Virus record (IMG/VR): IMGVR_UViG_3300037172_000103
Coordinates: 1-38,899 of that record
DNA length: 38,899 bases
Strand: one strand, 5' to 3'
Origin: a virus
A program made the position numbers and the translations under genes. Numbering within the stretch: position 1 is the first letter of the stretch; every line of letters begins with the position of its first letter. The notes under the pieces are model-generated. The model was given only the letters and a program-made list of their open reading frames with translations, had not been told where the DNA came from and searched no databases. Shown here one piece after another: positions 7,821-38,899 of the stretch.

Positions 7821-7840
7821 TTTGAGCCTTTCGCAAATGA

Positions 7841-7926: not shown

Positions 7927-7960
7927 CAGCAAAGCCCCCCGCTGGGTTTTGGAGGAAGCG

Positions 7961-8567: not shown

Positions 8568-8591
8568 AGCAATTGGCAGTTGGCAGTTGGC
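8568..8591. repeat. Heptad array 8
   Basis: Units CAATTGG and CAGTTGG (twice) run into the TAG stop (8591-8593) of the tail hub gene. Confidence 0.85.
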
Positions 8592-11232: not shown

Positions 11233-11245
11233 GAGGAAGGAGCCT

Positions 11246-11279
11246 CTGGCAGTTGGCAATTGGCCAGCGGTTAGCTGTG
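11246..11279. repeat. Heptad array 10
   Basis: Units CAGTTGG, CAATTGG, CCAGCGG and TTAGCTG. It includes the TAA stop (11271-11273) of the tail tip gene. Confidence 0.85.
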
Positions 11280-16387: not shown

Positions 16388-16389
16388 CG

Positions 16390-23551: not shown

Positions 23552-24040
23552 TCACTGCGGCTCCGTGAACAGCATGCCCACCTGCAGCACGCGCCGGTAG
23601 AGATAGCCTTGGCCGCCAGGTTCGAAGTGGGCGTCGAATTCATCGGCAATCCAGAGATCGCCAATGATCGTGCCATCGGGCAGCGCGTAGTTGCCCGTCG
23701 CCATGCCCAGTACTTGTTCGCGCACCGTCCGCGAAAGTTCGCGCGCGGTCAGATAGCCGGATGGGTTGAGCGGATTCTCCGGGTTGTCGTTGGCCACGCA
23801 GCCAAACTGGAAGCGCCCTTCGAGCATGCTGGCTCCCGCCGTCCGTCGATCCAGGGTATCGAAGGCTTCGCGGGAGGAAACCCGATCAAGAACCAGCGCC
23901 GGCAGCGTGGGATTCTTGGGCAGGAAGGAAAAATAGAATGCGCTCCAGATCTTCTGCGCCTTCTCTTCCGCCGATTGCCCGAGTTGCGGCTGGAGTGCGG
24001 CATTTGCCAGCGCCCAATTCGATAGCCCGCTTTCGATCAT
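23552..24040 (-). CDS. Tail completion/terminator protein
   Basis: The 162-residue protein (MIESGLSNWALANAALQPQL, PALVLDRVSSREAFDTLD, ARELSRTVREQVLGM, YLYRRVLQVGMLFTEPQ) has the layout of DUF3168/gp17-like tail terminators, with a hydrophobic strand ending and a central RTVREQ helix. These proteins cap the tail tube and dock the tail to the head. It follows the head-closure gene and precedes the tube genes, the standard place. Assignment is by layout more than by motif. Confidence 0.65.
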   Translation of the reverse strand: MIESGLSNWALANAALQPQLGQSAEEKAQKIWSAFYFSFLPKNPTLPALVLDRVSSREAFDTLDRRTAGASMLEGRFQFGCVANDNPENPLNPSGYLTARELSRTVREQVLGMATGNYALPDGTIIGDLWIADEFDAHFEPGGQGYLYRRVLQVGMLFTEPQ

Positions 24041-24063
24041 TTTTTGGAAACCCCGCTGGGTTT

Positions 24064-24084
24064 TGGCTAATGGCTAAGAGCTAG
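24064..24084. repeat. Heptad array 16, contains a stop codon
   Basis: Units TGGCTAA, TGGCTAA and GAGCTAG. The TAG of the head-closure gene (24081-24083) is part of the last unit. Confidence 0.8.
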
Positions 24085-24449
24085 GTTTGACTTCCCGCGT
24101 TCTGGCCGATCTCGGCGCAATACAAATCGAGAAAGAAATGCAGCTCGTCTTCATCCTCGATGTACTTGATCTGGAACGTGCGCCCTTCAAACTTCACTGT
24201 CATATCGAGCGTGACCGGCGACTGGTAAGGGATGCGGACGATGTGGTCCGCTTCCTGCGCAATCTGGTCGGCCTTGTCGAGTTCGTCGCCCTTGAGGGCG
24301 CGGATGCTGGCCCAGCTCGTCACCGCAGGGCTTGGCGGCAAAGGCCCGCCATCGGTGGGGTTGCGGCCGGCCGACGCATAATTGAGCGTGATCTGCCGCG
24401 ACATCCCACCAATGGAGTAGGGCGAAGAGCTGAGGCGTTTGAGGGGCAT
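24081..24449 (-). CDS. Head closure/head-tail joining protein (gp16-like)
   Basis: The 122-residue protein has the shape of head-tail adaptor proteins (SPP1 gp16/Phage_H_T_join type): an N-terminal strand region (MSRQITLNYASAG), a central TSWASIRALKGDELDKADQIAQEADHIVRI helix-strand, and a closing EGRTFQIKYIEDEDELHFFLDLYC. The family seals the connector and binds the tail. The frame continues 18 codons upstream through heptad-array sequence, so the ATG at 24449 was chosen; a start at MSRQ is also possible. Confidence 0.75.
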   Translation of the reverse strand: MPLKRLSSSPYSIGGMSRQITLNYASAGRNPTDGGPLPPSPAVTSWASIRALKGDELDKADQIAQEADHIVRIPYQSPVTLDMTVKFEGRTFQIKYIEDEDELHFFLDLYCAEIGQNAGSQT

Positions 24450-24460
24450 GGGAGAGGACA

Positions 24461-24513
24461 GCCGTTGGCAATTGGCAATTAGCGAACGGCTGCTAACTGC
24501 CAACTGCGAATTG
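24461..24513. repeat. Heptad array 17, two-armed
   Basis: Left arm units CCGTTGG, CAATTGG and CAATTAG are followed by inverted units CTGCTAA, CTGCCAA and CTGCGAA. The two halves can pair to form an imperfect hairpin. Confidence 0.9.
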
Positions 24514-24520
24514 CTTTTTC

Positions 24521-24880
24521 TTACGTGGTGCGCAGCACGGAGACGAAGACCAGGGCGGAATTCGTGGCCAGGTAAACCAGCGCGCCGCTCTCGAGCCAGC
24601 CCTGGAGCTGCTTCATCTGGATCATGCAGGTGGCGCCGGCGGCAATCGAATAGGCCGTCAGGGAAGCATCGGTACGACCGTAAGGATCGGCCACGCTGGT
24701 GATGGTGATGGTGTGCGGGGCGGTGTCGGTGTTTTTGAACAGCAACACTTCCTGCCCGGTGGCGGCGAATGAATTGCCGTTGACGGCATCCATGGCGACA
24801 GGCGTTACCACGAGATCGCCCGCAGCGACGGCATAATTGTTCAGCTTGAGTTGGACTGGAGTTAACGCGGTTTGTGCCAT
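24521..24880 (-). CDS. Phage structural protein, probable head decoration, 119 aa
   Basis: The protein starts MAQTALTPVQLKLN after GGGAG. It has a beta-rich sequence (EVLLFKNTDTAPHTITITSVADPYGRTDAS, LQGWLESGALVYLATNSALVFVSVLR) that I associate with small structural proteins of siphoviruses with an Ig-like/beta-sandwich pattern. It sits between the connector and head-closure genes. A longer frame from 24928 has no support. A decoration role is inferred. Confidence 0.6.
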   Translation of the reverse strand: MAQTALTPVQLKLNNYAVAAGDLVVTPVAMDAVNGNSFAATGQEVLLFKNTDTAPHTITITSVADPYGRTDASLTAYSIAAGATCMIQMKQLQGWLESGALVYLATNSALVFVSVLRTT

Positions 24881-24947
24881 TTTGAAATCTCCCTTGATTT
24901 GCTGGATTGATTGAAGTGCGAAAGGCAAAGTACGAAAAGGTTTTGAA

Positions 24948-24992
24948 GCAGTTGGCCGTTGGCGGTTGGCGAAACCGCGAATTGCTAGTTGC
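24948..24992. repeat. Heptad array 18, two-armed
   Basis: Units CAGTTGG, CCGTTGG and CGGTTGG, then CGAAACC, GCGAATT and GCTAGTT. It ends at the TAA of the connector gene. Confidence 0.9.
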
Positions 24993-24997
24993 TCTTT

Positions 24998-26236
24998 TTA
25001 CGGTGTGGGCGCGTAGTCGTGAACGGTGACACAGCCGAGCATCTCTTCAAGCGAGAGCGGAACCTTGCTCACCGATCCCTGAGTGACGGGCTCGCGGTTG
25101 TAATACCAGTGGTGCACCAGGGCCTTACAGAAGCGCGTCACAATTTTCGGCAGCGTGCGGTCCACCAGGAACACGCCTTGTTGCTCGGGCGAGTTTGGCA
25201 GCGCGAGACCGGTATCGCCCAGAGCCGTATAAGGTCCCAGGCAGCGCCAGGCGTTCGCAATTCCGTTGTCGGCCGTGTAGCCGCCCCTGGTGGTCGACCA
25301 GGGCAGCGGTTCCACGCCCACCACCTGCAGCGAGTAGGGCGCGATCGGCTGGCTGATCAAAGCGGCCACGTTCAGCAGTTGGAGGTTGCTGTTGAAGTCG
25401 AGAATCACATAGGCCTGCAGGCCGGCAAATTGCGTGCCCGGCGTCCAGAAGCCGCGGATGGGGCCCACGTTCAGCCAGTTGACGCTGTTGTCGGCGATGG
25501 TCTGGCCGATGGCGCCAGCTTCGAAATTCGGCCGCGGCAAAGTTCCCGTGGTGCCCGCGGGCGCCGTCTGCATCCAGAGGTTGCCATTCAGGTCCGTGGT
25601 GTAGGCGTATTGCGCCACCGTCACGCTGGGCTGCCAGGTGGGGTTCACCGCGCTGGTTTCCGTCTCTGGCTCGGCGATGGCGGTTTGCCCGGCGGCAATT
25701 CCGGCGCTGTTGGGGGCATAGCCCGCGGTGAACGGAATGGCGATCGCCGCCGGCACGTGCAACGTCAAAGGCCAAATGGTGTAGGGGATCTGGCGAATGC
25801 GGCCGGGCTGGCTCGCCGCGTCCACAATAAAATCCTGCCCTGGGTTCAACGTGTAAGGCCGGCCATCGGTGCCGATGAAGACGATGGGCTGCACCGAAAC
25901 CAGCGGCGGCCGCTTGATTTTGATTTCCCCCTGCCAGCGGTGATGACGGTCATAGCCCATGGCGCCGTATCCGGAGCCGCCGGATCCACCGCCGGCAAAT
26001 TCGCCGCGGTGCCCGTGGCTATCCCAGCCGGGCCAGTGGTCGAGGTACTGCACAAAGGTCGAGCGCACCAGGGCGCAATTGGTGATCAGCTCGGCGGCCT
26101 CGCGCGCTTCCTGGATGAGATCCGTGATGTCCCCATCGTCATTCACCACGCTCGGGGGCACGCGCAGCCAGTTCTTCATGGCGGCAAGCGAGACGGGTTC
26201 CTCGGAAATGATGGAGGTGCGGACCAGAGAATTCAT
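24998..26236 (-). CDS. Head-tail connector (gp6-like) with large internal insertion
   Basis: The N-terminus (VSLAAMKNWLRVPPSVVNDDGDITDLIQEAREAAELITNCALV, then YLDHWP) matches gp6/phiE125 gp8-like connectors. The C-terminus (LPKIVTRFCKALVHHWYYNREPV) matches the end of the same family. Between them, about residues 170-365, lies an extra 190-200 residues; such connectors are usually around 200 residues. The insertion carries the module W-P-S-V/G-x-x-x-A-x-Y, GTTGTLPRPNFE, then TIADNSVNWLNVG. This module is also found twice in the tail hub at 8591. The core acts between portal and head-closure protein. Confidence 0.75.
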   Translation of the reverse strand: MNSLVRTSIISEEPVSLAAMKNWLRVPPSVVNDDGDITDLIQEAREAAELITNCALVRSTFVQYLDHWPGWDSHGHRGEFAGGGSGGSGYGAMGYDRHHRWQGEIKIKRPPLVSVQPIVFIGTDGRPYTLNPGQDFIVDAASQPGRIRQIPYTIWPLTLHVPAAIAIPFTAGYAPNSAGIAAGQTAIAEPETETSAVNPTWQPSVTVAQYAYTTDLNGNLWMQTAPAGTTGTLPRPNFEAGAIGQTIADNSVNWLNVGPIRGFWTPGTQFAGLQAYVILDFNSNLQLLNVAALISQPIAPYSLQVVGVEPLPWSTTRGGYTADNGIANAWRCLGPYTALGDTGLALPNSPEQQGVFLVDRTLPKIVTRFCKALVHHWYYNREPVTQGSVSKVPLSLEEMLGCVTVHDYAPTP

Positions 26237-26261
26237 GTTTTGGGGGAGCCTTTAGTTTTGG

Positions 26262-26306
26262 AGCAACCGGCAATTGGCAGTTAGCCAACGGCCAGTTGCC
26301 AACTGC
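26262..26306. repeat. Heptad array 19, two-armed
   Basis: Units CAACCGG, CAATTGG and CAGTTAG, then CCAACGG, CCAGTTG and CCAACTG. It ends near the TAA of the 26313 gene. Confidence 0.9.
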
Positions 26307-26312
26307 TTTTTC

Positions 26313-26666
26313 TTACAGGTAGGCCTCGGGAAACAGGTCCGAAAGCGGCTGCTCGTCGTCGCAGGGCACGTCCGCGGCCAGGGGAGGAAAGCTGGCATTT
26401 GCAGGCGATTGGCGGGCGTTTCGCGCGGGTTTTTCCACTTCGTTCCCTGGTCCAGCGGCGAAGAGCTCGAGCTGCACGCCCTGCAGCCGTCCGCTGCTGT
26501 TTTTGCAGTCTTTCGCTGCAACTTCGGCAGCTTTTCCAGGACGAACTTTCCCAGGTCGAACCCGGGTTTTGGGCCGGTAGAAGTCGTCTTCGTAAAACTG
26601 CTTGGCCACCTGGTGGCCGCCGCCCGCCTCGCGCACCGCGCGCATCTGATAGGAACGATTGAACAT
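26313..26666 (-). CDS. Hypothetical head-region protein, 117 aa
   Basis: The start MFNRSYQMRAVREAGGGH at 26666 was preferred over a GTG eight codons upstream, because the latter lacks a ribosome site. The protein has a basic middle with a duplicated RPGK unit (VRPGKVRPGK) and an acidic C-terminus (DVPCDDEQPLSDLFPEAYL). No family was recognised. It is flanked on both sides by heptad arrays. Confidence 0.5.
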   Translation of the reverse strand: MFNRSYQMRAVREAGGGHQVAKQFYEDDFYRPKTRVRPGKVRPGKAAEVAAKDCKNSSGRLQGVQLELFAAGPGNEVEKPARNARQSPANASFPPLAADVPCDDEQPLSDLFPEAYL

Positions 26667-26689
26667 GGCCAGAAACCCCGCAATGAGCA

Positions 26690-26724
26690 CTTAGCAGTTC
26701 GCCAACCGCCAACTGCTAGCTGCC
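26690..26724. repeat. Heptad array 20, contains a stop codon
   Basis: Units TTAGCAG, TTCGCCA, ACCGCCA and ACTGCTA. It includes the TAG (26716-26718) of the 26716 gene. Confidence 0.85.
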
Positions 26725-26952
26725 GCTTTTGATTTGCCCCTGCATTCCGAACCTTTGCACCAGTATAGGTGCAGATGTTCCAACCGGAACATTTCGGCTG
26801 CGATACTCGGCGGCGCTGCTGGCCATCAACTCGTCCCGGCGCCCAAAGACGTCCCAATAGGCTCTGTACTCGTCCCAGGTCATGGCGGGCGTCTTCCAGC
26901 CGGCGCATTCGCGCGCATAGCGCAGGTACCGGGCTGGGAGGGTGGTGATCAT
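26716..26952 (-). CDS. Small head-region protein, 78 aa
   Basis: The sequence MITTLPARYLRYARECAGWKTPAMTWDEYRAYWDVFGRRDEL is tyrosine- and tryptophan-rich and helical. The ATG overlaps the previous stop (TGATG); a GTG one codon upstream is an alternative. The stop is inside the heptad array. Function unknown, though the genes are coupled to the upstream fibre-like gene through the 98-aa gene. Confidence 0.55.
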   Translation of the reverse strand: MITTLPARYLRYARECAGWKTPAMTWDEYRAYWDVFGRRDELMASSAAEYRSRNVPVGTSAPILVQRFGMQGQIKSGS

Positions 26953-27248
26953 CACCGGCCGCGCCTAAAGGCACCCGCTGGCTTCCTAGGAGCTACTGTG
27001 GGGGCCGCGGAGGGAGTGGGTAGGGGTTCAGGGGGCGCCGAGCCGGAAATGTCGACCTTGGTGGCCAAATCGAGGCCGGCAAAGTAGGGGCCCACGTCGA
27101 GCGGCAGCTCCCGAAAGCCGAGAGCATCGGGTTCGTCAAAGTTCACTGGCAGCGCCTGGCCTTTTTGGAGCATCACCTGGGCGTCGATAAAGGGCATATC
27201 TTTCACGTGGCCGCGATCGCGGCCGCCGGTCATGCGGATGTAGGTCAT
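26952..27248 (-). CDS. Small head-region protein, 98 aa
   Basis: The protein MTYIRMTGGRDRGHVKDMPFIDAQVMLQKGQALPV has a compact N-terminal half and a Pro/Ala-rich disordered tail (APPEPLPTPSAAPTVAP). Its ATG overlaps the TGA of the beta-helix gene (ATGA at 27245-27248). The first half resembles small phage proteins that accompany head genes. A longer frame to 27515 lies antisense to the beta-helix gene and was rejected. Confidence 0.55.
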   Translation of the reverse strand: MTYIRMTGGRDRGHVKDMPFIDAQVMLQKGQALPVNFDEPDALGFRELPLDVGPYFAGLDLATKVDISGSAPPEPLPTPSAAPTVAPRKPAGAFRRGR

Positions 27249-29398
27249 AAAATCCTTTCCCACGCCTGGAACAATTCGCGCTCCAGCTCGAAAATCTCGC
27301 TCAACAGCAGCCCGTTCACATTGGCCGAGGGCAGCACGGCGCTGAGGGTAAAGTTTGCGGTCACGCTCTCGGCCGCGGTCATGGTGACGGAGCATCCACC
27401 GGTTCCGCTGCAGCCGGAGCCGCTCCATCCCGCGAACGTGTAACCGCCGCCGGCCGCGGCCGTGAGAGCCACGACGGTTCCGCTGGTAAAGCTGGCGGAG
27501 CAGGTGGACGGGCATGAGACGCCGCTGGGGCTGCTGGAGATGAAGCCCGTGCCCACGCCGGTCGCCGTAAGCGCATACGAAAGGCTGCCGGCATATTGAA
27601 ACGCGCCAATGTCCCAGCAGGCCGGAGTTCCCTGGGTGGAGCAGGTGGCAGTGGCTGGCCGCGCCAGGGGCGTGCGCGTGCCGCCTTCGCTGGTATCGAA
27701 AGCCAGCGAGGCCAGCGTCAGAGTCGCCAGGCTTCCTAAATTTGCGCCCTGTTGAATGTTGGGTGCGCCGGCCTGCGGGGATCCGTTCGTATTGAAGAGC
27801 GTGCTGTTATTTTGCATCGAATGAGCATCGCAAGAGCAGTAAGCCTGCCATGCCGAGAATGATCCTTCGAAGGTGTTCGACTGGCTGACAAAACAATTCC
27901 CGCCATTCGCGCAGGTGTAGTTGCCGTAGAAGTTCGAATCGATGGTCGCCGAGCCGGGCGCGGTGCCCACCAGGCTGATTGGGTCGCCAAGCTGATAGGT
28001 GAAATTGTCTTCAAAGGTGAGGGAGTTCAGGCCCTGCATGCCAAAACCCAGCGTGTTATCCGCGCCGGTCGCCGGCCCCGCGATGGTGTTCGAATAGACC
28101 TGTTGCGTGCCGCCCTGCCCGCTTGCCAGATCAAACCAGCCATTCGTATTGACCGCGGCGCCGGAGGCGATCACCAAATTGTTATTCCACCAGGCGCTCG
28201 AAAACATGTGCGAGTGCGTGGTGGAAGTGCCGCCCTCAACGAAGATGAAAGCAGTGGGGCAGGTGCCCCAATTGCCGTAAAAGTAATTGTTGTAGCCGTT
28301 GATCCCGGTCATGCTGCTCTTAGGATCGGTGTACTGATAGTAAGCGACCGGCGTGCTGTTGGTACCCGCCGAGCTGGTCAGGGTCAGCGATGTGGCGCTA
28401 TTCCGGGTTGCGACCGTGTACGTGATGTAGGCCGAGGTGCCAGGGTTATAGATGGCGATCGGCTCGCCCGCGAAGGGGCCTTGGAATTGATCGCCGGTCG
28501 ACAAATTAACCGCTGTCCCGGCGGTCGTGACAGTGCCATTCCAATCGGTGCCAAAGGTATGAATGCCATCGTGATGGAAGTGGCAGCCGGCGGTGTCCCA
28601 ATTCGCGGTGTCATGCACCAGGTTGTCGTGAAAAAAGGCGTTGCTGAAAGCATTCGTGCCCGATCCCGCCGCGAGCATCCAGCCGTGGTCCATGTTGTAA
28701 ATATTGTTTCCTGAAATCGTCGTCCCGGAATCGCCGTTGGAATAGGGCTCTTTCAGGCAGAAGCCGGCATCGTGCAGCGTGTTGCCGGAGATGGTCCAAT
28801 TCGATCCGGAGAAGGCGATGCAATTTTGCTGCGTCTGATCGACGGTTATCGAACCGCCCGCGGCATGCACGTAGATGTTGGCGATGGTGACATTTTCGAC
28901 GGTGCAATTGTTGCAAGCGTAACCGTCGATTCCGGTCGAGTCATTCGGGGTTCCGAAGGAATCGCCGTTCTGGAAATTCTCAATGGTCAGGTTGCCATCG
29001 CCGTTGAGCACGATGTAGCTCTGATTGCACATCGAAACGGCGCCGCCGCATCCCACGCCATTGGCCGAGGCGGCGAAGTAGCCGGCCTCGAAAGTGACGG
29101 CGCCCTGATCGGCAATCATCGTGATCGGATTGCTGCTGGTGCCCGAGCCTGAAAATGTGGCCAGCGTCGTCGCGGTGCTGGTGGTGTTGCCGTACGTGCC
29201 GATGCAGAGATGGAAGTTGACGCCCGGCGTAAAGTCTCCACTCGAGAGAGAGCTGAGGGCCCGCGCGTTGCTGCATGACGTTAAGCCGCTGCCCGATCCC
29301 GCAAGCGTAGGAGCAACGTAAATATCGGTAGTCGAGGCGAACGCACTTCCGCCCGCGCTCAGCAGGAGCGCGGCCAGCAAGAAGAGGAATCGTTTCAT
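27245..29398 (-). CDS. Secreted parallel beta-helix protein with InlB-like C-terminal domain
   Basis: The 717-residue protein starts with a clean signal peptide (MKRFLFLLAALLLSAGGSAFA). Beta-helix-like repeats follow (IYVAPTLAGSGSG, LTIENFQNGDSF, NCTVENVTIANIYVH, WTISGNTLHDAGF, TTISGNNIYNMDHG). Near residues 620-690 lies a divergent InlB-like repeat (GTGFISSSPSGVSCPSTC to YTFAGWSGSGC). Such proteins are secreted polysaccharide-active or adhesive proteins in bacteria. Signal peptides are rare in virion proteins. It is coupled to the small gene downstream. Fibre, depolymerase or secreted accessory protein are all possible. Confidence 0.7.
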   Translation of the reverse strand: MKRFLFLLAALLLSAGGSAFASTTDIYVAPTLAGSGSGLTSCSNARALSSLSSGDFTPGVNFHLCIGTYGNTTSTATTLATFSGSGTSSNPITMIADQGAVTFEAGYFAASANGVGCGGAVSMCNQSYIVLNGDGNLTIENFQNGDSFGTPNDSTGIDGYACNNCTVENVTIANIYVHAAGGSITVDQTQQNCIAFSGSNWTISGNTLHDAGFCLKEPYSNGDSGTTISGNNIYNMDHGWMLAAGSGTNAFSNAFFHDNLVHDTANWDTAGCHFHHDGIHTFGTDWNGTVTTAGTAVNLSTGDQFQGPFAGEPIAIYNPGTSAYITYTVATRNSATSLTLTSSAGTNSTPVAYYQYTDPKSSMTGINGYNNYFYGNWGTCPTAFIFVEGGTSTTHSHMFSSAWWNNNLVIASGAAVNTNGWFDLASGQGGTQQVYSNTIAGPATGADNTLGFGMQGLNSLTFEDNFTYQLGDPISLVGTAPGSATIDSNFYGNYTCANGGNCFVSQSNTFEGSFSAWQAYCSCDAHSMQNNSTLFNTNGSPQAGAPNIQQGANLGSLATLTLASLAFDTSEGGTRTPLARPATATCSTQGTPACWDIGAFQYAGSLSYALTATGVGTGFISSSPSGVSCPSTCSASFTSGTVVALTAAAGGGYTFAGWSGSGCSGTGGCSVTMTAAESVTANFTLSAVLPSANVNGLLLSEIFELERELFQAWERIL

Positions 29399-29413
29399 TT
29401 GGGCTTTAGGGTG

Positions 29414-32400
29414 TTACTGGTTGATGTGGCATTCGGCCTGATAAGCACCGATGTTGATGGCGTCGCTGGAGGTGCCGGTGGCGCCGCCAAGGGTGAAGGT
29501 GCCCGCGGTCGAAGCGTTCCACTGGATCACGAAATTCAGCGAGAACGGATAGTTCGTTCCCACAGCCGCGACGTTGCCGCCAGTTTGAAGAATCCCGCCT
29601 CCGGTGGTCTGAGCCGCAGTTCCAACCGAAGCGCCAGATCCGCTATAAGTAGCGAACATGCCGAATTCGATGGCTTGTGCCGCCACGGTGGTCGAGATCG
29701 AGAATCTTGCAGGTGCTACGGCCGTCGAAATGTTGTAAATGCCGGTGCAGGTTCCCGTGATCACCGCTCCCGCGGCGATCGTTCCGGAAGTAATAATCGC
29801 GGTGATGCTGGTGGTGGAATTGGTGAATGAACTGGTCAGGACCATCGGCGCGTAAGCCGTATAGCCCAGATCCTGCGCAGCGCCGGCCCCATTGGTGCCG
29901 AGAGCATTGCCCGTCGACGTCCAGGTGCCGGTAATGCCCGCGCCAGCGCATCCCGTGGTGGTGAGCCCGCCGTTGGCATCCGTGCACAGCGCTACGCCGG
30001 TACTGGCGGAGACTGTCCCCGCGCTCATCAGTTTCGAATCCGTACCTTGCACGCTGACCGCTGTCGGTACCGCGCTGGCGTTGGTCTGGTTGGCCACCAC
30101 GGTGTAAGCCGCTTGAGCCGCCAGACTCGCAAGCGGCAAGGCCGTGCCGGCGACAAGTTGATTCGAGCTGTTGGTCTTCACGAAAGCCGCGCTGGCCGGA
30201 ACCGCCGCGCCATTCACATCCACAGTATTGGGCGCAGTTCCCTGCCCGCTCAGATAGCCCTCGAAGTTCGTGCCGTCAAAATAGATGGTGGCTGAGGTGG
30301 GAGCGGTTTCAGAAGCGGCGGCCAGCACCAGGTTGGCGGTGCCGCCGTTCAAGGTCAGGCCGGAAGCGGTGGGGTTAATGTTGACCACCGAAGAGCTGTA
30401 ATTCGCGACCGTGATCCATTGTCCAATCAGGCAAGTTGCGCAAGTTGGCAAGTTGACGGTTGCGGTCGACGCCATCGAATTTGGCGCATAGAACATCGCC
30501 GATTCGGCGAACTGCGCTGCCGTGGGTGAGTTTCCACCGGCGGCGATGGCTGCCGCAGTGTTGGCCGGGCATCCGCTGGTGGTCGCCCCGCCGTTGGCAT
30601 CCGTGCACAGCGCTATGGCTGCGCTGGTAGAGACCGTGCCCGCACTCATCAGTTTCGAATCCGTGCCCTGCACGGCCACCGCTGTCGGTACCGCGCTGGC
30701 ATTCGTCAGGTTGGCCACGGCGGTGTAGGCTGCCTGGGCCGCCAGACTGGCCAGCGGGAAGGAAGCGCCAGCGATAAGCTGCCTCGAGCTGTTGGTGGAC
30801 AGGAAGGTGGCGCTTGCCGGAACTACCGCTCCGTTCACATCCACGGCGTTGGGCACAGTCCCCTGCCCGACGAGATAGCCTTCGAAGTTCGCGCCATCAA
30901 AAAATACGATTGCGGCCGTGGGAGCGGTTTCGGAAGCGGCCAGGAGTTGCAGGTTGGCCGTGCCCCCATTCAGGGTCAGGCCGGAAGCGGTGGGATTGAT
31001 GTTGACCACCGAAGAGCTGTAATTCTGTACCGTGATCCACTGCCCGGCAAAGCACGTCAGGCAAGTGGGAAGGTTGACGGTCGCGGTGGAAGCCATCGTA
31101 TTCGGCGCATAGAACATGGCGTACTGGCTGAATTGCGCCGTGGTGGCGGAGTTTCCCCCGGCAGCGATGGTGAGCACGGAGTTGAAGGCATTTTTCGGAA
31201 CGATATCGGCGTCAAAGTTGGTCGCAACCGCGGGATCGACAAAGAAGCTCGCGACCTGGCCGGCATACAGAACAAATGTGCCTGCGCCGTTGATCGTGCC
31301 GGCGGCGGTAATCGTTACCTGGGTCACGGGGTTCGGCGATCCCGAAGCTAGTGTGACCGGAATGGCCAGCTTGAAGTTGCACTTCGGTACGCCCAGCGTG
31401 GCGGCCGTGGGCAAAGTGTCGGTGCCTGCGCCCGTATAGGACTGATACACCACGCGCGTGCCGCAGTCGGTCGCCACAATTCCGGTACCGGTTGCGTTAT
31501 TTTGCACTCGCCCATTCACGCCTGGCAGAAAGTCAGAAATCGGGCCGGCGGTGGTGCCATCCGGAGTGTGCCCAATCATGCGCACAACGTTCGCCACCGT
31601 GGTTCCGAAGCTGGCGTAAGGCACCAGCCCATTCGGATTCACCTGGCTGGTATCGATCTGCACGTTGCCGGCAGCATCGGTTGAGTATTCATCTTCACTG
31701 CGGGAAGCAGCCGTGCAGGAAATGGTCAGGTGATTCGCGTCCGCGATTAGATTGGTGGGCGCGTTCGGAGAGCCGCAGGCCGCCGACTTGATGGTCAAGC
31801 TCTTCTCGGCCGTCGCTCCCAAAGCAACCGCGACCACCGAGGCTGTCGCCTGATAAGCGGCGTCCACGCAGCAAGCTTCAGGATTGGTAATGCTGACGGC
31901 AGTCGATCCGCCGGTAGTCACCGCGTCGGAGATCGAGATGAGCACGCTGGCGCTGGTACCGCATCCCGTGAAGGTGCCAGAAATCGTAAGCGAGGTGATC
32001 ACGCCACTGATGAGGTTCGGGGTGAGTGTGCCGCCGGTGCAGGTCGTAGGAAAAACTTTTACGGTCGGAGCGGTATAGGCCAATCCGCCGCTGACTTGCG
32101 TGGTTGCCGTGATGTTTCCGCCGGAGGTGGTTGCGGTGAAGTAGGCGCCGTAACCCGGCGTCTTTCCACCCATCAGTGCGCCTGCCACTTCAAAGGTCTC
32201 AAAGTGGGGCTTGTCGGTGATCGGCGTTGAGGCCGCCACTACTTCCATGTTGTAGAGCGGATAAGCCGCCCAGCCATTGGTGGTGCTCAGCGTCTTGCAA
32301 TACGTGTTGCCAATGGTGATCCCGCTAACTTTTTTCGGTCCGCCGGCGATGGCATCCAGGTAGATTCCGACCGCGCCTTCCTGGCAAAACCGCCAGGGGT

Positions 32401-33220
32401 TCGCGACGCTGTTGGTCAGATTCAGGAGCTGATAGGTGGCGTTGCCGCCGCTGCCGCTGGCGCTCGAAGTGCCCACCCACAACCCGCGGCCGTTGTTATC
32501 CCAACCGCGAAGATCGGCGTCATAGGCGCCGGAATTTTCTTGCGCGGCCTCATTGAACATCGCCGTGCAGCCGGGCACGCCATTACAGTCGGAAGTGAAA
32601 TGGATCATCTGCGCGCCGTAACCCTGCGCGCTCGCCGAAGTGGAGCAAGTGATAAAGCAAATGTTCGGGGTATCGGGCGTCTGGCTGCCGCTATTACAAA
32701 AGGCGGCGTGCGAGGTATCGAGGGCGTTGCAGGCCTGAATGGTGAAGACGCCAATGCCGGGCGATCCCGAACCGGAGCCAATCACCAGAGTCTTGGAAGG
32801 CAGAATCCACGAAGCGCCGTTCCACATATGGAACGTGTGCCCGGAGTTCATGACGATGTTGCCGGCAAAGTTCGAAATAATCGGAGAAGTGGGGCAGGAT
32901 AAATCCGCCACCGGAAAATCGATCAGGATGTCTTGCCCGATGGGGCCGGCGATCGATTCATTTTCGGCCGTAACCATCTGGTCGCAAGGCGTCGCGCCGG
33001 TCTGGCTCGAGGCCGAAATTGCGGGCAGGATGCCGAGCGGCAACAGGCCTTCGGCATTCAGGGTCACCAGGTCGCCAGGGGCGCTCCCCACTACGTAAGG
33101 CCCGTAAGGTTGGATCTGGGGAGCCGAAGTTACATAACTTTGCGCGCAGGCGGGCAGCGCGAAGGCACACAGGAGCGCGGCCGCGGCGAGCGCGGAAGAA
33201 AGCTTGCTGAATATGTTCAT
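29414..33220 (-). CDS. Secreted giant protein with tandem 207-aa modules
   Basis: The 1268-residue protein starts MNIFSKLSSALAAAALLCAFALPACAQS, a Sec signal peptide. The N-terminal half is Gly/Thr/Ser/Asn-rich and beta-helix-like. From about residue 690 two near-identical modules of about 207 residues follow (GGNSATTAQFSQYAMF to DANGGATTSGC, then GGNSPTAAQFAESAMF to DANGGLTTTGC). A C-terminal beta-sandwich ends with GTSSDAINIGAYQAECHINQ. Its ATG overlaps the stop of the preceding gene (TAATG), so they are translationally coupled. An extracellular or virion fibre role is inferred. No enzyme motif was seen. Confidence 0.65.
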   Translation of the reverse strand: MNIFSKLSSALAAAALLCAFALPACAQSYVTSAPQIQPYGPYVVGSAPGDLVTLNAEGLLPLGILPAISASSQTGATPCDQMVTAENESIAGPIGQDILIDFPVADLSCPTSPIISNFAGNIVMNSGHTFHMWNGASWILPSKTLVIGSGSGSPGIGVFTIQACNALDTSHAAFCNSGSQTPDTPNICFITCSTSASAQGYGAQMIHFTSDCNGVPGCTAMFNEAAQENSGAYDADLRGWDNNGRGLWVGTSSASGSGGNATYQLLNLTNSVANPWRFCQEGAVGIYLDAIAGGPKKVSGITIGNTYCKTLSTTNGWAAYPLYNMEVVAASTPITDKPHFETFEVAGALMGGKTPGYGAYFTATTSGGNITATTQVSGGLAYTAPTVKVFPTTCTGGTLTPNLISGVITSLTISGTFTGCGTSASVLISISDAVTTGGSTAVSITNPEACCVDAAYQATASVVAVALGATAEKSLTIKSAACGSPNAPTNLIADANHLTISCTAASRSEDEYSTDAAGNVQIDTSQVNPNGLVPYASFGTTVANVVRMIGHTPDGTTAGPISDFLPGVNGRVQNNATGTGIVATDCGTRVVYQSYTGAGTDTLPTAATLGVPKCNFKLAIPVTLASGSPNPVTQVTITAAGTINGAGTFVLYAGQVASFFVDPAVATNFDADIVPKNAFNSVLTIAAGGNSATTAQFSQYAMFYAPNTMASTATVNLPTCLTCFAGQWITVQNYSSSVVNINPTASGLTLNGGTANLQLLAASETAPTAAIVFFDGANFEGYLVGQGTVPNAVDVNGAVVPASATFLSTNSSRQLIAGASFPLASLAAQAAYTAVANLTNASAVPTAVAVQGTDSKLMSAGTVSTSAAIALCTDANGGATTSGCPANTAAAIAAGGNSPTAAQFAESAMFYAPNSMASTATVNLPTCATCLIGQWITVANYSSSVVNINPTASGLTLNGGTANLVLAAASETAPTSATIYFDGTNFEGYLSGQGTAPNTVDVNGAAVPASAAFVKTNSSNQLVAGTALPLASLAAQAAYTVVANQTNASAVPTAVSVQGTDSKLMSAGTVSASTGVALCTDANGGLTTTGCAGAGITGTWTSTGNALGTNGAGAAQDLGYTAYAPMVLTSSFTNSTTSITAIITSGTIAAGAVITGTCTGIYNISTAVAPARFSISTTVAAQAIEFGMFATYSGSGASVGTAAQTTGGGILQTGGNVAAVGTNYPFSLNFVIQWNASTAGTFTLGGATGTSSDAINIGAYQAECHINQ

Positions 33221-34824
33221 TAAACTCCAGTGATCGAAACGGATGCCCCGGTGGTGGTGGAAATCACGTAGCGCAGATTGGTGTTCGAAAGCGGCCATCC
33301 CGCGCACTGCCCGGGTTCGAGCTGCAGGCCTGCAGTCGAGCCCGAGGTGGTCACGCTCGAGGGGCCGATGAAGACGCTGATGGTGTTATTCGGCGAAGCG
33401 CACACGCTGAAGCTGTGCGCGGCATTGGAGGCCAGAGCCACGGCCGTGGTTGTGACCGCTTGCGTGAAGTCGATGGCCGCGCCAAACCCCGCCGGCTGGG
33501 TGGGCGTGGTGGGCGCCGTCGCCATACTGATCGGCTGCGTGGCCTGATAGAAAGCGCCCGCAACGTTCAGCGTGCTTTGGTTGCTGGCGATGACCACCGG
33601 CTGCGAAGCCGCCATGGTCGCCTGGCCGGGAGTGCCGCCACTGCAACCCACTTTGCAATCCGTTTCTACGTAGCCGCTGCCATCCACCGGCGAGATCACG
33701 CTGCTGGGCGTATTGGGCGCAATGGCCAGGCTCACCGGCTGCGTCGATTGATAGAAAATTCCTGTCACCGGCGTAGTGGGCGCGGTCGCCATGCTCACCG
33801 GCTGGGTTGCCTGATAGAAAGTGCCGGTCACCGGCGTGGTGGGCATCGTCGCGATACTCACCGGCTGTGTCGACTGAAAGAAAGTTCCCGCCACGTTCAG
33901 CGTGCTCTGGTTGCTCGCAATCACCACCGGCTGCGAAGCCGCCATGGTCGCCTGGCCAGGGGTGCCGGCTGCGCATCCAGTCTCGCAATTCACTTTTACG
34001 TTGCCGCTGCCATCCACCGGCGAGGTAATGGTCGAGGGAGTGTTCGGCGCGGTCGCCAGGCTCACCGGTTGCGTCGCCTGATAGAAAGTGCCGGTCACGG
34101 GCGTGGTGGGCGCCGTCGCCAGGCTTACCGGCTGCGTCGCTTGAAAGAAAGTTCCCGCCACGTTCAGCGTGCTCTGGTTGCTCGCAATCACCACCGGCTG
34201 CGAGGCCGCCATGGGCTGCTGGCCAGGAGTGCCGGCAGCGCATCCCACTTTGCAATTCGTTTCGATGTAACCATTGCCATCCACCGGCGAAGTGATGCTG
34301 CTCGCGCTGCCACCGGCCGCGGACGGATTATCGGTATAGCCAAAGAGAATCACGATCACGCTGCCGGTACCGGTAATGGTGGGTGTGATCTGGCCATAGG
34401 CGGAAATGCCCGCGGCGGTCGAGGTCACGTATTCGCCAGCGGTCAGGCAGTTGCCAATCGTCGAGGCTGGCAAAATGCCGCCAATCACCGGCGAGACCAG
34501 CGCACCCGTACCCGCGGCCACTGCCGTGGCGGAATCGAGCGAGAGCGTGCAACCGCTCATCCCGCCCACGGGGTTCGGGATCCACAGAATCCGGTAATAG
34601 CTGATGCCGCGCGTATCAAAGCCCGCGGAGGCCGTGGAACTCGAGTTGAAGGCGAAGTCGCCGCCCAATTGCCAGGGATACCCGCCGGTCTGCTGCAACT
34701 TGGTCGAGCCTGGGCCCACAATTTGGGCCGTGGCCAGCGGGACCAGAAACACATCGAGCGTGGCGAGTGCGGGCGCGATCGCGAGCAGCGCCAGAACGAA
34801 CAGGAATTTTTGCAGCGTCTTCAT
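33220..34824 (-). CDS. Secreted repeat protein with QATQPVS units
   Basis: The 534-residue protein starts MKTLQKFLFVLALLAIAPALA, a Sec signal peptide. The central region holds six copies of a repeat around QATQPVSLATAPTTP and three copies of an SPVDGxGxxxxNCxxGCxxGTPGQ block followed by SQPVVIASNQSTLNV. The latter motif also occurs in other phage structural proteins. It ends with an FSVCASPNNTISVFIGPSSVTTSG beta-sandwich. Cysteine pairs repeat in each block. It is the first of three coupled secreted-type genes. The start at 34824 was chosen over an upstream frame encoded by repeat and terminator sequence. Confidence 0.65.
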   Translation of the reverse strand: MKTLQKFLFVLALLAIAPALATLDVFLVPLATAQIVGPGSTKLQQTGGYPWQLGGDFAFNSSSTASAGFDTRGISYYRILWIPNPVGGMSGCTLSLDSATAVAAGTGALVSPVIGGILPASTIGNCLTAGEYVTSTAAGISAYGQITPTITGTGSVIVILFGYTDNPSAAGGSASSITSPVDGNGYIETNCKVGCAAGTPGQQPMAASQPVVIASNQSTLNVAGTFFQATQPVSLATAPTTPVTGTFYQATQPVSLATAPNTPSTITSPVDGSGNVKVNCETGCAAGTPGQATMAASQPVVIASNQSTLNVAGTFFQSTQPVSIATMPTTPVTGTFYQATQPVSMATAPTTPVTGIFYQSTQPVSLAIAPNTPSSVISPVDGSGYVETDCKVGCSGGTPGQATMAASQPVVIASNQSTLNVAGAFYQATQPISMATAPTTPTQPAGFGAAIDFTQAVTTTAVALASNAAHSFSVCASPNNTISVFIGPSSVTTSGSTAGLQLEPGQCAGWPLSNTNLRYVISTTTGASVSITGV

Positions 34825-34878
34825 GAGAGTGGAGACCTTTCGGGAATGGAAGATCAAAGACCAAGGACGAGACGCGCG

Positions 34879-34922
34879 ATTAGCAGCTAGTTTTTTTTCT
34901 AACTGCCAATTGCCAGTTGCTG
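34879..34922. repeat. Heptad array 21
   Basis: Units TTAGCAG and CTAG, a T-run of eight, then CTAACTG, CCAATTG and CCAGTTG. It lies next to a terminator hairpin. Confidence 0.85.
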
Positions 34923-34935
34923 AGGAAGAGCCTTC

Positions 34936-34972
34936 GAAAGCCGCGCTGGGCAGGTTCTCCCGCGCGGCTTTC
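34936..34972 (-). terminator. Strong hairpin after the 178-aa head gene
   Basis: GAAAGCCGCGC (34936-34946) pairs with GCGCGGCTTTC (34962-34972), with a further GGG/CCC pairing in the loop. It sits directly downstream of the 34986 gene on the minus strand and separates it from the secreted protein genes. A long T-run is absent. Confidence 0.6.
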
Positions 34973-34985
34973 AAGAGGGTTTGAA

Positions 34986-35522
34986 TTACGTGGTAACGGT
35001 GGGGCTGGAGACGTTCGCAAAGCGAGCGCCCGTCAGAATGGCCACAACCGAAGCCATATCGATCGCCGTGGGTGCGCCCAGGCCGATTCCCACATAGGAA
35101 TCGACGCCGAGCGAGCCCGCCAGAACTCCGCCTACCGTGGCGGATTCCAGTTCGTTCGCATCGATCGAAATCACGATCAGGCCATTCGCCGGCCAGTTCG
35201 CAGCCGATAAGACCACGCCGGTGGCAGGAGCATTCTGAATGGTGCCCAGAACGTCATTGCCGGCGCCGCCCGCCGCCTGGAAGTAGTAGTTGAAGGGGAT
35301 TGCCGTGGCGCCAGCGCCGGCGGCGCTCGAACACAAGTACACCAGCAGCGTGGTCGCATCCTGGGTAGCTTCCGCTCCCGCGATGACCAGAACGTCGGCA
35401 TGCTTGTAGTTCTTCATGGAGAACGCGGGATTGATCGGTGCCGATGAGGCGTCCGCGCTGATGCTTTGCGGCGGCAGAATCACTGCAATGTGCCCCGCTT
35501 CGGAAAGATTGAAACCGTTCAT
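34986..35522 (-). CDS. Capsid-adjacent structural protein, 178 aa
   Basis: The protein starts MNGFNLSEAGHIAVILPP after AAGGAGA (seven-base spacing). It is beta/alpha mixed with AFSMKNYKHADVLVIAG and IPFNYYFQ, a pattern I associate with structural proteins encoded directly after major capsid genes. It probably decorates the head. It is followed by a strong hairpin, so the capsid pair may form its own transcription unit. A longer frame to 35594 is array-encoded. Confidence 0.6.
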   Translation of the reverse strand: MNGFNLSEAGHIAVILPPQSISADASSAPINPAFSMKNYKHADVLVIAGAEATQDATTLLVYLCSSAAGAGATAIPFNYYFQAAGGAGNDVLGTIQNAPATGVVLSAANWPANGLIVISIDANELESATVGGVLAGSLGVDSYVGIGLGAPTAIDMASVVAILTGARFANVSSPTVTT

Positions 35523-35569
35523 AGAGAATCTCCTTAAATCGAATTGGTTTGGGATCGGGACGGGAAAAG

Positions 35570-35621
35570 CAATTGGCAGTCGGCCGTGAGCCAACTGCCA
35601 ACCGCTTATTGCAAATTGCTA
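35570..35621. repeat. Heptad array 22, two-armed, contains a stop codon
   Basis: Units CAATTGG, CAGTCGG and CCGTGAG, then CCAACTG, CCAACCG and CAAATTG. It includes the TAG (35619-35621) of the capsid gene. Confidence 0.9.
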
Positions 35622-37076
35622 TCGCGTGGCGCCGCTGTTGAGGGCGACGAATGGCGACATGGTCGGTCCGCCATTTTTCGGGGTGAGTGGTTTCTTCCAG
35701 GTCGTTTGCCCGTCGATTCTGCAGGTGAAGCGGAAGCATTGCTCGCCCTGTAAGAATCGAACGTGCATCGAACTGGCCACCTGGATGGCTCCCTTGTCGG
35801 CCAAGAGCATCTGGCTCATGTCCGCGAGCACAATGTCGCCGACCGTGCCCAATTGAGCGTTATGTTCGGTCGGGATCACCGGCAGCCCAAGCAGTTCGCC
35901 GTAAGGACCAAACAACGGATTCGCTCCAGGTGGGTGATACAGCAGGATCACACCCGGGCCCGCGCCCGTGCCGACCTGCATGCTGAAGAGCTGAGGGATC
36001 ACGGTCTGGTCGATGAACCAGGCGGCAGCGGGCACATTGCCCACGGCCTGGCCAGCCGTCAAGTTCTCGGTCGCAATGGAGGCGATCGAGTTCTTCAGGC
36101 CTGGGTGCCAGAAGCGCGCCCACATGGCTTCCACGTCGGTCCCGGTTACAACACCTGCGGTCGCACCCGGTGAGATCGGCAGAAAGGCCTGTGAGTTGAA
36201 GATGCCGAGCGGTTGGCCGGCGCCGGTTCCCAGGAAGAGCGCGTCCTCAATGCGGAACGCCAATTCTGTGGGCATGTTATTCATGATCCATGCTTCTAAA
36301 GCCGGACCATCCGCCAGTAATTCGTCGGTCGCGAAGACCAACGCAGTGAGCTTGTTCAGGAACATTTCCACTTCGCGGAATTTCGGCCGCGAGCTCAGGA
36401 AGGTGTCCGCTTCGTTCGCCCAGAAGGCCAGCACTCCACCCATACGGCTGCCATCCGCACGCGAATCTTCGTCGACCACCCGAAGTTTGAGGCGGTTGGA
36501 AGTGGAAGTAATAGGCTGTTTCTGGCAGCGTCGTGTGATCTCACCTGTCAAATAGGTGCGCTGATAAATCTTGTCGCTGACGTCGGCGCCTACGAGGAAA
36601 CCTCCCTCGCTCGGAACCGCTTCGTTCATGGCGCCATCGGAGCCGCCCGCGGCCTGGAACACGCCGTTTTGATCGAAGTCACCAAACTTGCCGAAAAGTC
36701 TGGGATCGGTGCCTTGGCCGGTATCGGCCTGGTGCACAGCCCTGAGCTGCTGGGCAAAGCCCTTCACCCAAAGCTTGCGGGATTTCACCGCGGCATTCGG
36801 ATCGTCTTTCACGGCGACCGCGTCAATATTCTTTTCGCGCTCGAGCTGGCCGGCAATCTCGGTGAGCATGAAGTCCTGCAGATCGAGAGCCTTTTTCTGC
36901 GTATTGCGATCTTCGACCAGCTTCATGAACGTGGACTGTTCTTCGGCGGTCAGATCGCGCTTTTCGGTTTCGGTTTTGTCGTTGAGCTCTTGCGCTTTGG
37001 CGACGATGACCGCGAGCTTGGCTTCAATCTCAACCTTGCGCTGGCGGATGGAATCGATGCTGACTGGTTTTGCCAT
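35619..37076 (-). CDS. Major capsid protein, HK97 fold
   Basis: The 485-residue protein has the HK97-type layout. An N-terminal coiled-coil delta domain (IRQRKVEIEAKLAVIVAKAQELNDK, about residues 8-85) is followed by a charged linker, then EAVPSEGGFLVGADVSDKIYQ, which is typical just after the prohead cleavage region. Next come LTALVFATDELLADG, AFRIEDALFLGTGAGQPLGIFN, and C-terminal DMSQMLLADKGAIQVASSMHVRF and FRFTCRIDG. It forms the icosahedral shell, and the delta domain is expected to be removed by the protease encoded upstream. GAGGAGA seven bases before the ATG fixes the start. Confidence 0.93.
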   Translation of the reverse strand: MAKPVSIDSIRQRKVEIEAKLAVIVAKAQELNDKTETEKRDLTAEEQSTFMKLVEDRNTQKKALDLQDFMLTEIAGQLEREKNIDAVAVKDDPNAAVKSRKLWVKGFAQQLRAVHQADTGQGTDPRLFGKFGDFDQNGVFQAAGGSDGAMNEAVPSEGGFLVGADVSDKIYQRTYLTGEITRRCQKQPITSTSNRLKLRVVDEDSRADGSRMGGVLAFWANEADTFLSSRPKFREVEMFLNKLTALVFATDELLADGPALEAWIMNNMPTELAFRIEDALFLGTGAGQPLGIFNSQAFLPISPGATAGVVTGTDVEAMWARFWHPGLKNSIASIATENLTAGQAVGNVPAAAWFIDQTVIPQLFSMQVGTGAGPGVILLYHPPGANPLFGPYGELLGLPVIPTEHNAQLGTVGDIVLADMSQMLLADKGAIQVASSMHVRFLQGEQCFRFTCRIDGQTTWKKPLTPKNGGPTMSPFVALNSGATR

Positions 37077-37170
37077 TACGATCTCCTCGTTGGGTATGGG
37101 GTGGAACGGATGTACTGCGCCGGAGACCGTCAAAATCGAAGGATTCGAAAGCTGGCCGGTTGAAGCGTGC

Positions 37171-37195
37171 AATAAAAAAGCCCGCATCGGCGGGC
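37171..37195 (-). terminator. Intrinsic terminator between protease and capsid genes
   Basis: On the minus strand GCCCGC-CGAT-GCGGGC is followed by six T and then ATT (plus strand A-run at 37174-37179). This is a textbook rho-independent terminator, downstream of the protease gene and upstream of the capsid gene. Confidence 0.85.
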
Positions 37196-37205
37196 CTGAA
37201 ATTTG

Positions 37206-37248
37206 GGCAATTGGCCGTTAGCCAACCGCTAGCTAGCTGCTAATTGCT
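37206..37248. repeat. Heptad array 23, two-armed
   Basis: Units CAATTGG and CCGTTAG, then CCAACCG, CTAGCTA, GCTGCTA and ATTGCTG. It lies between the protease stop codon and the terminator. Confidence 0.9.
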
Positions 37249-37255
37249 GTTTTCC

Positions 37256-38479
37256 TTACACCGCCAACATGCGGCGACGTCGCTGCGCTGCCAGTGCCGC
37301 ATTCGCAGCCTGAGCCGCGGCTGTGGCCTTCGCGCAGGCCTTGCAGGCTCCGCACGGGCATGAGCAGCTCATGTCGTCGCCTTTGGCCTTGGCGGCCGTA
37401 CCGGTGCAGCCCTTGCAAGGCTCACAGGAGCAATCGCAGAAAGTTTGGTCGTCGTCTTCCGCTTTGGCGGCCGCGGCCAGCGTTGGGTCGGTTCCTTCCG
37501 CGCGTGCCCCGGATCCTCCAGGCTTTTTCACGCCATATTTTTCGAGCACGCTATCGAGCGTGCCCACGCGATCGGCCAGACCTGCCTTCACCGCATCGCC
37601 GGCGAGCAGACTGCGTCCCTGGCCGAAACCATCGCGCACCGCGGCCTGCGACGTCCCGCGATGCTGGGCCACGGCTTTAATAAAGCTGCTGTTGACCGAA
37701 TCCACCTGGGATTGCAGGTAAGCCTGCGCTTCATCGGAAAGCGGCTGCGAAGACGATCCCTCCGCCTTGTATTTGCCGGCCTTGATGATGGTCACTTTCA
37801 CGCCTTCATTCTCGAGCGCTTTTGACATGTCCTGGTGGACCATATACACGCCGATCGAGCCGCACTGTCCGCTGGGCGTGCAAACCACTTCACTCGCGGC
37901 CGAGGCCAACCAGTAAGCCGCGCTGCAGGCCATGGCGTTCGAGACGGCCGTCACCGGTTTCACCTTGCGCGCGTCGTAAATCTCCTGGGCGAGTTCCATC
38001 ACGCCCTCCACCGATCCGCCGGGCGAGTCCACATCGAACACAATGGCTTTGCAGTTGCCATCCTGGAGCGCCTGGCGGAATTGGGCGGTAAGCGCCTGAA
38101 TGGATCCGCCGCCGCTTCCGGAAATCTCGCTCATCATGCTCATGCGGTGCGAAATAATTCCCGTCATGGGGATGAGTGCCACGCTGCCGGGCGCTGCGGC
38201 GTTGCGTTTGCCGCCTGCGCCCATCATGGGCAGGTGGGGCAGGTCTTCATACGCATCGTCAGCTTTGTCCTGGGCGACGATGTAGCGCGCCTCGAGCGCC
38301 TCGTGTCCCAGATATCCGCTGGCCGCGTTGGCTTCAGCGATGCGATCGCGAATCTCTTCCGGCGTCCACTTCATGCCGGCAGCCTGGTAGCGAATCAGTT
38401 CTTGCATGCGCAGCAGTGTCTCTTCGCGCAGGGCCCAGATGTGGCTTTCGAACTCGGCGATGATGCGGGCGTACTTCAT
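37256..38479 (-). CDS. Prohead protease, S49/SppA-like, with cysteine-rich tail
   Basis: The 407-residue protein has an N-terminal helical part, then the S49 peptidase core: VALIPMTGIISHR, IVFDVDSPGGSVEGV, AMACSAAYWLASAA (probable catalytic Ser), GSIGVYMVHQDMS and IIKAGKYKAEGS (probable catalytic Lys). It is expected to mature the capsid and scaffold. The C-terminus, about residues 350-390, holds two copies of C-x-C-x-C-x2-C-x2-C (ten cysteines) separated by an Ala/Lys linker. This is not a usual part of S49 proteases. The ATG at 38479 was chosen over an upstream frame read from the array. Confidence 0.85.
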   Translation of the reverse strand: MKYARIIAEFESHIWALREETLLRMQELIRYQAAGMKWTPEEIRDRIAEANAASGYLGHEALEARYIVAQDKADDAYEDLPHLPMMGAGGKRNAAAPGSVALIPMTGIISHRMSMMSEISGSGGGSIQALTAQFRQALQDGNCKAIVFDVDSPGGSVEGVMELAQEIYDARKVKPVTAVSNAMACSAAYWLASAASEVVCTPSGQCGSIGVYMVHQDMSKALENEGVKVTIIKAGKYKAEGSSSQPLSDEAQAYLQSQVDSVNSSFIKAVAQHRGTSQAAVRDGFGQGRSLLAGDAVKAGLADRVGTLDSVLEKYGVKKPGGSGARAEGTDPTLAAAAKAEDDDQTFCDCSCEPCKGCTGTAAKAKGDDMSCSCPCGACKACAKATAAAQAANAALAAQRRRRMLAV

Positions 38480-38481
38480 AA

Positions 38482-38520
38482 GTCTCTTAGCTCCTAGCTC
38501 AGTTTCCACAGCAGCTCAGT
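38482..38520. repeat. Heptad array 24, contains a stop codon
   Basis: Units CTTAGCT and CCTAGCT, then a degenerate CAGCTCAG part. The TAG of the 95-aa gene (38494-38496) is in it, and an AGGAG lies upstream of the protease ATG. Confidence 0.7.
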
Positions 38521-38781
38521 CTCCACAGCTTTTTGCAGGTTCTCCTGCGTCCATTCCAGTTTGTTGGCCACGAGATATCCGCGCACTCCGGCGGCGAATT
38601 CCGCTCCCCGCGGCAGTTCTGGGTGGGCTTGAACGAATTTCGATTCTTCGCGCATCGCCTTCACGGCCCTGATGTCATCCCCGAGCAGCTCCGCCAGTTT
38701 GTCGAAGGCGGCGCTGCCTTTACAGCGGCGTGCCACTTCCGCATCGGGAAGACCAGGCCGGGGGTTGAAGAGTTCATCCAT
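38494..38781 (-). CDS. Small protein upstream of the protease, 95 aa
   Basis: The protein MDELFNPRPGLPDAEVARRCKGSAAFDKLAELLGDDI is helical and charged, ending VETELLWKLS with the stop in the heptad array. No ribosome site is clear before the ATG. It sits between the preceding structural gene and the protease. A scaffold or portal-associated role is possible by position only. Confidence 0.55.
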   Translation of the reverse strand: MDELFNPRPGLPDAEVARRCKGSAAFDKLAELLGDDIRAVKAMREESKFVQAHPELPRGAEFAAGVRGYLVANKLEWTQENLQKAVETELLWKLS

Positions 38782-38785
38782 AAAA

Positions 38786-38807
38786 ATATGCAGTTATGCA
38801 GTTAGCG
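38786..38807. repeat. Short heptad array 25
   Basis: The TATGCAGT unit is repeated twice and followed by TAGC. It overlaps the 3' end of the partial upstream gene. Confidence 0.6.
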
Positions 38808-38899
38808 CGAGATCGGTCAATTCCTTGGCGCTGGTTTCTTCGATCCGGTCAATCGCCATCTCGCGCAGCGCGTTGCTCCTGGCCGTCACCATCAGAGCG
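38794..38899 (-). CDS. C-terminal end of an upstream gene, cut by the window edge
   Basis: Thirty-four codons remain open from the window edge to the TAA at 38794-38796, giving ALREMAIDRIEETSAKELTDL near the end. The fragment is helical and acidic. Directly upstream of the small protein and protease, a portal or similar head gene would be expected, but the fragment is too short to identify. Confidence 0.5.
   Translation of the reverse strand, partial: ALMVTARSNALREMAIDRIEETSAKELTDLALTA

Follow-up and report, generated by a model that had tools for sequence, protein, structure and literature searches.

A predicted export-tagged, fibre-like protein cassette at a variable site in a phage head operon

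Virus-particle proteins normally carry no export tag, and cytoplasmic assembly is the expectation for structural proteins of tailed phages. Why, then, does the head operon of the phage described here contain three large genes whose products begin with what appear to be Sec signal peptides, and where would such proteins act? The window, that is the whole stretch of DNA analysed, is an IMG/VR virus record of 38,899 bases whose genes named here lie nearly all on the minus strand, as do all window features given below with a start and an end. It encodes an integrase (phrog_1, E 3e-22), an S49 head maturation protease (37256 to 38509), an HK97-type major capsid protein (35619 to 37076; PF05065, 110.5 bits), a head-tail connector (24998 to 26236; phrog_40, E 4e-11), and tail completion, major tail and central-fibre genes. 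Between the capsid and connector genes lie SP1 (33220 to 34824; 534 aa, with an ATG at 34824 and an upstream extension of the frame reaching a TTG at 34974), SP2 (29414 to 33220; 1268 aa, ATG at 33220), and SP3 (27245 to 29398; 717 aa), which together occupy 7.6 kb of the 38.9-kb record. The stop of SP1 and the start of SP2 overlap in TAATG at 33220, a 15-base gap (29399 to 29413) separates SP2 from SP3, and SP3 ends in an ATGA (27245 to 27248) that also holds the start of the following gene. These junctions were read directly from the letters and, with the reading frame coordinates, confirm the sizes, positions and couplings given in the initial annotation.

The block has a well-defined border on each side. 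Upstream, between it and the capsid gene, is a conserved 178-aa gene (34986 to 35522) that has no match in PHROG; its working name, deco180, reflects a guess from position that it encodes a decoration protein. Downstream, on the connector side, is a conserved 98-aa gene whose product starts MTYIRM (26952 to 27248); the SP3 stop overlaps the start of this gene and so couples the block to the head operon. A further conserved gene, deco2 (24521 to 24880; 119 aa, without a signal peptide), is positioned between the connector and the stopper and has a weak match to phrog_16194, annotated as a tail protein (E 1.6e-5). Words resembling GGCAATTGGCAGTTAG are repeated in the intergenic stretches 26237 to 26951 and 34840 to 34930 and are present in relatives too.

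Export of SP1, SP2 and SP3 through Sec is well supported by features of their predicted sequences. Leaders were called with a home-made rule that looks for a positive n-region, a hydrophobic h-region and small residues at -3 and -1, and all three proteins pass it, with likely cleavage (arrow) at LATA↓QIVG near residue 33 in SP1, where an earlier site, ALA↓TLD, passes as well, at ALPACA↓QSYV in SP2, and at GSAFA↓STTD in SP3. When the first 110 residues were shuffled, the rule was passed by 2.7% of shuffles for SP3, 5.1% for SP2 and 11.3% for SP1, the product, calculated by hand, being 1.6e-4. Two of the 30 other minus-strand frames listed for the window pass as well, one a probable membrane protein of 225 aa and the other a doubtful tail protein of 152 aa. 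In relatives the rule also accepts the capsid protein of L002 and, at four loci, a start internal to the 178-aa gene, so it is to be taken as a screen and not as proof. The Sec-type N-termini proposed for all three proteins in the initial annotation hold up under the rule, and three independent observations add support. One is purifying selection on SP1, described below. Another is the conservation of leaders in the SP1 family, in which an alignment shows divergent sequence, preserved hydrophobicity and mostly an A↓Q or G↓Q end. The third is cysteine content: mature SP1 to SP3 contain 58 Cys in 2429 residues (2.39%) versus 53 in 6263 (0.85%) in a comparison set of 18 further window structural proteins (odds ratio 2.9, Fisher p 8.6e-8). 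The S49 protease, at 3.4%, is the exception to the low content elsewhere, and fibre-like window proteins lacking a signal peptide (at 15338, 12452, 11271 and 8591) contain 0.7 to 1.3%. Leaders and cysteines together point to export accompanied by disulfide formation, and with a leader found joined to deco2 in a relative, described below, they lead us to reject plain chance as the origin of the hydrophobic N-termini.

The style of the leaders also bears on the host. Among 27 phage signal-peptide proteins, a set curated by hand with starts also chosen by hand, 20 have [A/S/G]↓Q at residues 13 to 44, compared with a mean of 11.3 and a maximum of 18 in shuffles (n=2000). The seven that lack this motif include SP3, and two of the 27, one of them the leader-bearing deco2 of L002, are devoid of Cys after the leader. 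On a Granulicella plasmid, the one comparison made, about 17 of 32 N-termini counted by eye in two stretches have the same motif. We infer from this acidobacterial style that the host is an acidobacterium. Scans of genome contigs with the capsid and SP3 alignments found no prophage relatives in cellular genomes, so the host assignment stays at that level.

What kind of proteins would be exported? All three are low in Lys and Arg and rich in Thr, Ser, Gly, Ala and Asn, a fibre-like composition. SP1 has, after its leader, a conserved β-rich domain of about 170 aa with two invariant Cys, then a linker, AASQPVVIASNQSTLNVAG, in three copies, and a C-terminal β domain of about 80 aa. It is under purifying selection, with Nei-Gojobori dN/dS of about 0.12 to 0.34 over the first 175 residues. 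Its PHROG match to "virion structural protein" falls short of significance (E 0.22), and sub-threshold Pfam matches to hepatitis C NS5A and DUF7464 were taken as chance. SP2 has a fibre-type composition and two internal repeats, and no family match or relative was found for it in PHROG, Pfam, phage tblastn or PDB sequence searches. SP3 contains an InlB B-repeat (PF18998, 33.1 bits against a curated cut-off of 23.6) and a C-terminal helix. The structure prediction proposed in the initial annotation was run with AF2 on SP1 and SP3 and returned low-confidence models (mean pLDDT 39.8 and 37.4, respectively), of which that of SP3 resembles a β-helix. Its Foldseek matches in the PDB, all above E 1e-3, are mostly β-helix carbohydrate enzymes or phage tailspikes, and SP3 is probably a right-handed β-helix, judging from this model. 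Neither PHROG nor Pfam yielded a significant fibre or spike domain or any lysis domain in the three proteins, and no CAZyme, glycoside hydrolase or polysaccharide lyase catalytic family was matched. Likewise, PDB sequence searches with SP3, SP2 and the SP1 alignment, tblastn of SP1, SP2, SP3 and deco2 against 50,697 phage records, a search of plasmids with SP3, and Rfam at its gathering threshold gave no match.

Comparison with related phages, collected by searches with the capsid, SP1, SP3 and 178-aa genes, indicates that the block is an accessory, swappable cassette. The site between the 178-aa gene and the small conserved gene was scored in 12 distinct phages including the window, with contigs of one phage merged (L006 into L005, L007 into L009), repeat contigs (L022-L024, L040-L042, L044 and L045) counted once, and the count leaving out L003, L007 and L013, whose contigs end before or within the site, and L016-L021. 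It is occupied in five, namely the window (7.7 kb), L002 (5.0 kb), L004 (where the site runs off the end of the contig), L005 (5.2 kb) and L009 (3.4 kb), and empty, with about 75 to 110 bp, in seven (L008, L012, L014, L015, L043, L046 and L047). Presence and absence at a single site is the accessory behaviour expected of moron genes, and it agrees with the earlier view of the block as a costly insertion. An SP1 homologue is the first large gene in all five occupied sites, preceded in L005 by a 79-codon frame. The genes that follow it vary between phages and nearly all bear leaders: one encodes 1043 aa in L002, and those of L004, L005 and L009 have fibre-like products. The L009 cassette also has a GDSL hydrolase frame without a leader of its own (6910 to 7593; PF13472, 44.8 bits). 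This frame overlaps the 3' end of the fibre-like gene before it, and the two are possibly a single gene split by a frameshift. SP3 homologues occur in the L009 contig, L010 and L011, the latter two having structural genes that differ from those of the window lineage; all four members including SP3 have leaders, that of L010 assigned by hand, at differing genome positions.

Export-tagged genes are found outside the insertion site as well. L015, whose site is empty, has leader-bearing genes of 1829 and 552+ aa further downstream, the L009 contig has a second leader-bearing pair close to its tail genes, and L005 and L043 have a leader-bearing or lipoprotein-like gene ahead of the connector. Two copies of deco2 are present in L002, one with a leader (13621 to 14067) and one without (14114 to 14476), each preceded by AGGAG, and the sole deco2 homologue found in L046 (11775 to 12215) has a leader-like N-terminus. 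The L011 contig encodes a leader-bearing, incomplete 792-aa protein that ends in a Peptidase_S74 domain (29.9 bits, cut-off 22) and matches the PHROG "long tail fiber protein distal subunit" (E 5.7e-9). The 1829-aa protein of L015 shares a domain (E 3.9e-13) with a fibre-like protein of L014 that lacks a signal peptide. Host-type domains, namely the InlB repeat, choice-of-anchor D and CHB_HEX_C/NosD, occur on some tagged proteins. By sequence, then, the tagged proteins are both phage-like (deco2, S74, the fibre domain) and host-like (domains, leader style). In the 52-kb contig of L014 no structural-region gene passes the leader rule, so such proteins look dispensable. A long fibre-like protein without a signal peptide, starting MAVTNKFNRG, is encoded there at 16272 to 18665, by position between the tail-completion and major tail genes. 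The same contig (as locus L035) has frames at 7365 to 8852, 9091 to 9726 and 11135 to 11911 with glycosyltransferase-like starts (MKILIAVVQC..., MKALIAISSCG...), which by inspection are possibly surface-modifying.

When the cassette is expressed can be approached from its surroundings. A scan for sigma-70-like sites, a consensus that may not fit this host, found none in 24000 to 38899 against 4.0 expected from shuffling. The coupling of the block into the head operon and this lack of a promoter-like site suggest late expression. Directly 3' of the 178-aa gene, and just upstream of the cassette, is a strong hairpin (34936 to 34972) whose apical loop, AGAACCTG, is kept in seven of nine phages examined (window, L002, L004, L005, L008, L012 and L014) with varying stems; the hairpins of L009 and L015 have different loops. 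Of 15 predicted pairs, six are changed on both sides in one or more sequences, with a covariation term that is not favourable (+0.86). The hairpin has no T run and is found both with and without the cassette.

Taken together, we give about even chances to a reading in which the block forms an accessory cassette of fibre- or spike-type proteins, exported, expressed late with the head operon and acting outside the cytoplasm on glycans of the host or its matrix. SP1, SP2 and SP3 would be made late in infection together with the head proteins, pass through Sec, and shed their leaders, mostly at [A/S/G]↓Q. The mature proteins would fold in the periplasm with disulfides. Beyond the cytoplasm, either on the outside of the cell or released by lysis, they would then bind or cleave glycans of the host or its matrix. 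That the target is a glycan at the surface or outside the cell is suggested by the kinds of domain present and by the weak β-helix model of SP3. The benefit would probably be that the burst spreads more readily through exopolysaccharide, or that progeny and competitors are kept from sticking to the dying cell and what is left of it. The earlier suggestion of adhesins or glycan-active proteins is partly upheld, in that the InlB repeat, the weak β-helix model and the GDSL frame of L009 favour it, but SP1 to SP3 match no CAZyme family.

A less probable but still credible alternative is that the block is lysogenic conversion cargo, with secreted adhesins or glycan enzymes that the phage captured from the secretome of its host and that the lysogen expresses, in the manner of lambda lom or bor. 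The integrase marks the phage as temperate, the content of the site is accessory and variable with empty sites in relatives, the leaders and domains are host-type, and Lom, according to excerpts of PMC12309495, sets a precedent for expression in lysogeny. However, the sigma-70 scan gave the block no independent promoter, its genes overlap or directly adjoin one another and the head gene that follows, for which late-operon expression is the simpler account, and some tagged proteins are homologous to phage structural proteins. The promoter scan and the gene coupling also give no support to the proposal in the initial annotation that the proteins are made by the lysogen.

It is rather unlikely that the proteins are exported virion fibres, matured in the periplasm and bound to capsids or tails once lysis mixes the compartments. 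The location in the head operon, the tagged deco2 copies of L002 and L046, and relatives with S74 and fibre domains speak for such fibres; the tagged copies of this conserved structural gene, deco2, lend some support to the periplasm-passing head fibres first envisaged for this locus. Nevertheless, no binding partner was identified, the cassette is dispensable at the head-operon site, and the titles and abstract openings searched hold no description of exported fibre-like proteins in tailed phages and no precedent for such a route. A broader version is similarly improbable: a tailed-phage lineage would finish its virion outside the cytoplasm, with fibre- and decoration-type proteins Sec-exported, disulfide-bonded in the periplasm and docked on capsids or tails only after lysis, the tagged deco2 duplicates following the same strategy. 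Finally, virion fibres of the ordinary kind, with a hydrophobic N-terminus that serves as an uncleaved virion-attachment or membrane segment, would fit the fibre-like composition and late location but are very improbable given the n/h/c organisation with A↓Q sites, the Cys enrichment, and the leader cleanly added ahead of deco2.

If the late-expressed, exported cassette is the correct reading, a recurrent and interchangeable set of export-tagged, fibre-like proteins in late operons, tagged copies of a structural gene among them, would suggest that during the burst these soil phages affect the surface of the cell or its surroundings. Disulfide formation and decoration after lysis is a testable route to which little thought is usually given in tailed phages. 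Genes of this type are also easily mis-annotated as tail fibres or auxiliary metabolic genes.

Several known systems resemble the cassette in part. Like secreted β-helix or InlB-repeat surface proteins of hosts, SP3 combines a leader with an InlB B-repeat; unlike them, it is encoded in a phage late operon and has no relative in the genome-collection scan or in plasmids. Tail fibres and β-helix tailspike depolymerases share the composition, the probable β-helix of SP3, and the S74 domain of one exported relative, but they are assembled in the cytoplasm without a signal peptide, whereas SP1 to SP3 have Sec leaders, are rich in Cys, and are located in the head operon. In the portions of the literature searched, the nearest published cases found are lambda Lom and the Sec-exported endolysins. 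Lambda Bor, like Lom, is an exported moron. The endolysins are, from excerpts of PMC8951688 and PMC7143992, phage proteins made late and exported by means of a Sec leader, a description that SP1 to SP3 appear to share, except that they are not peptidoglycan enzymes. Lom, as excerpted from PMC12309495, is a leader-bearing outer-membrane protein whose gene lies between tail genes. As with the Lom and Bor morons, SP1 to SP3 are predicted to be exported and occupy an accessory position in the late or tail region of a temperate phage. Unlike those morons, they have no promoter of their own that we found and show no sign of an outer-membrane barrel, and they form one coupled head-operon cassette of three large fibre- or β-helix-like proteins.
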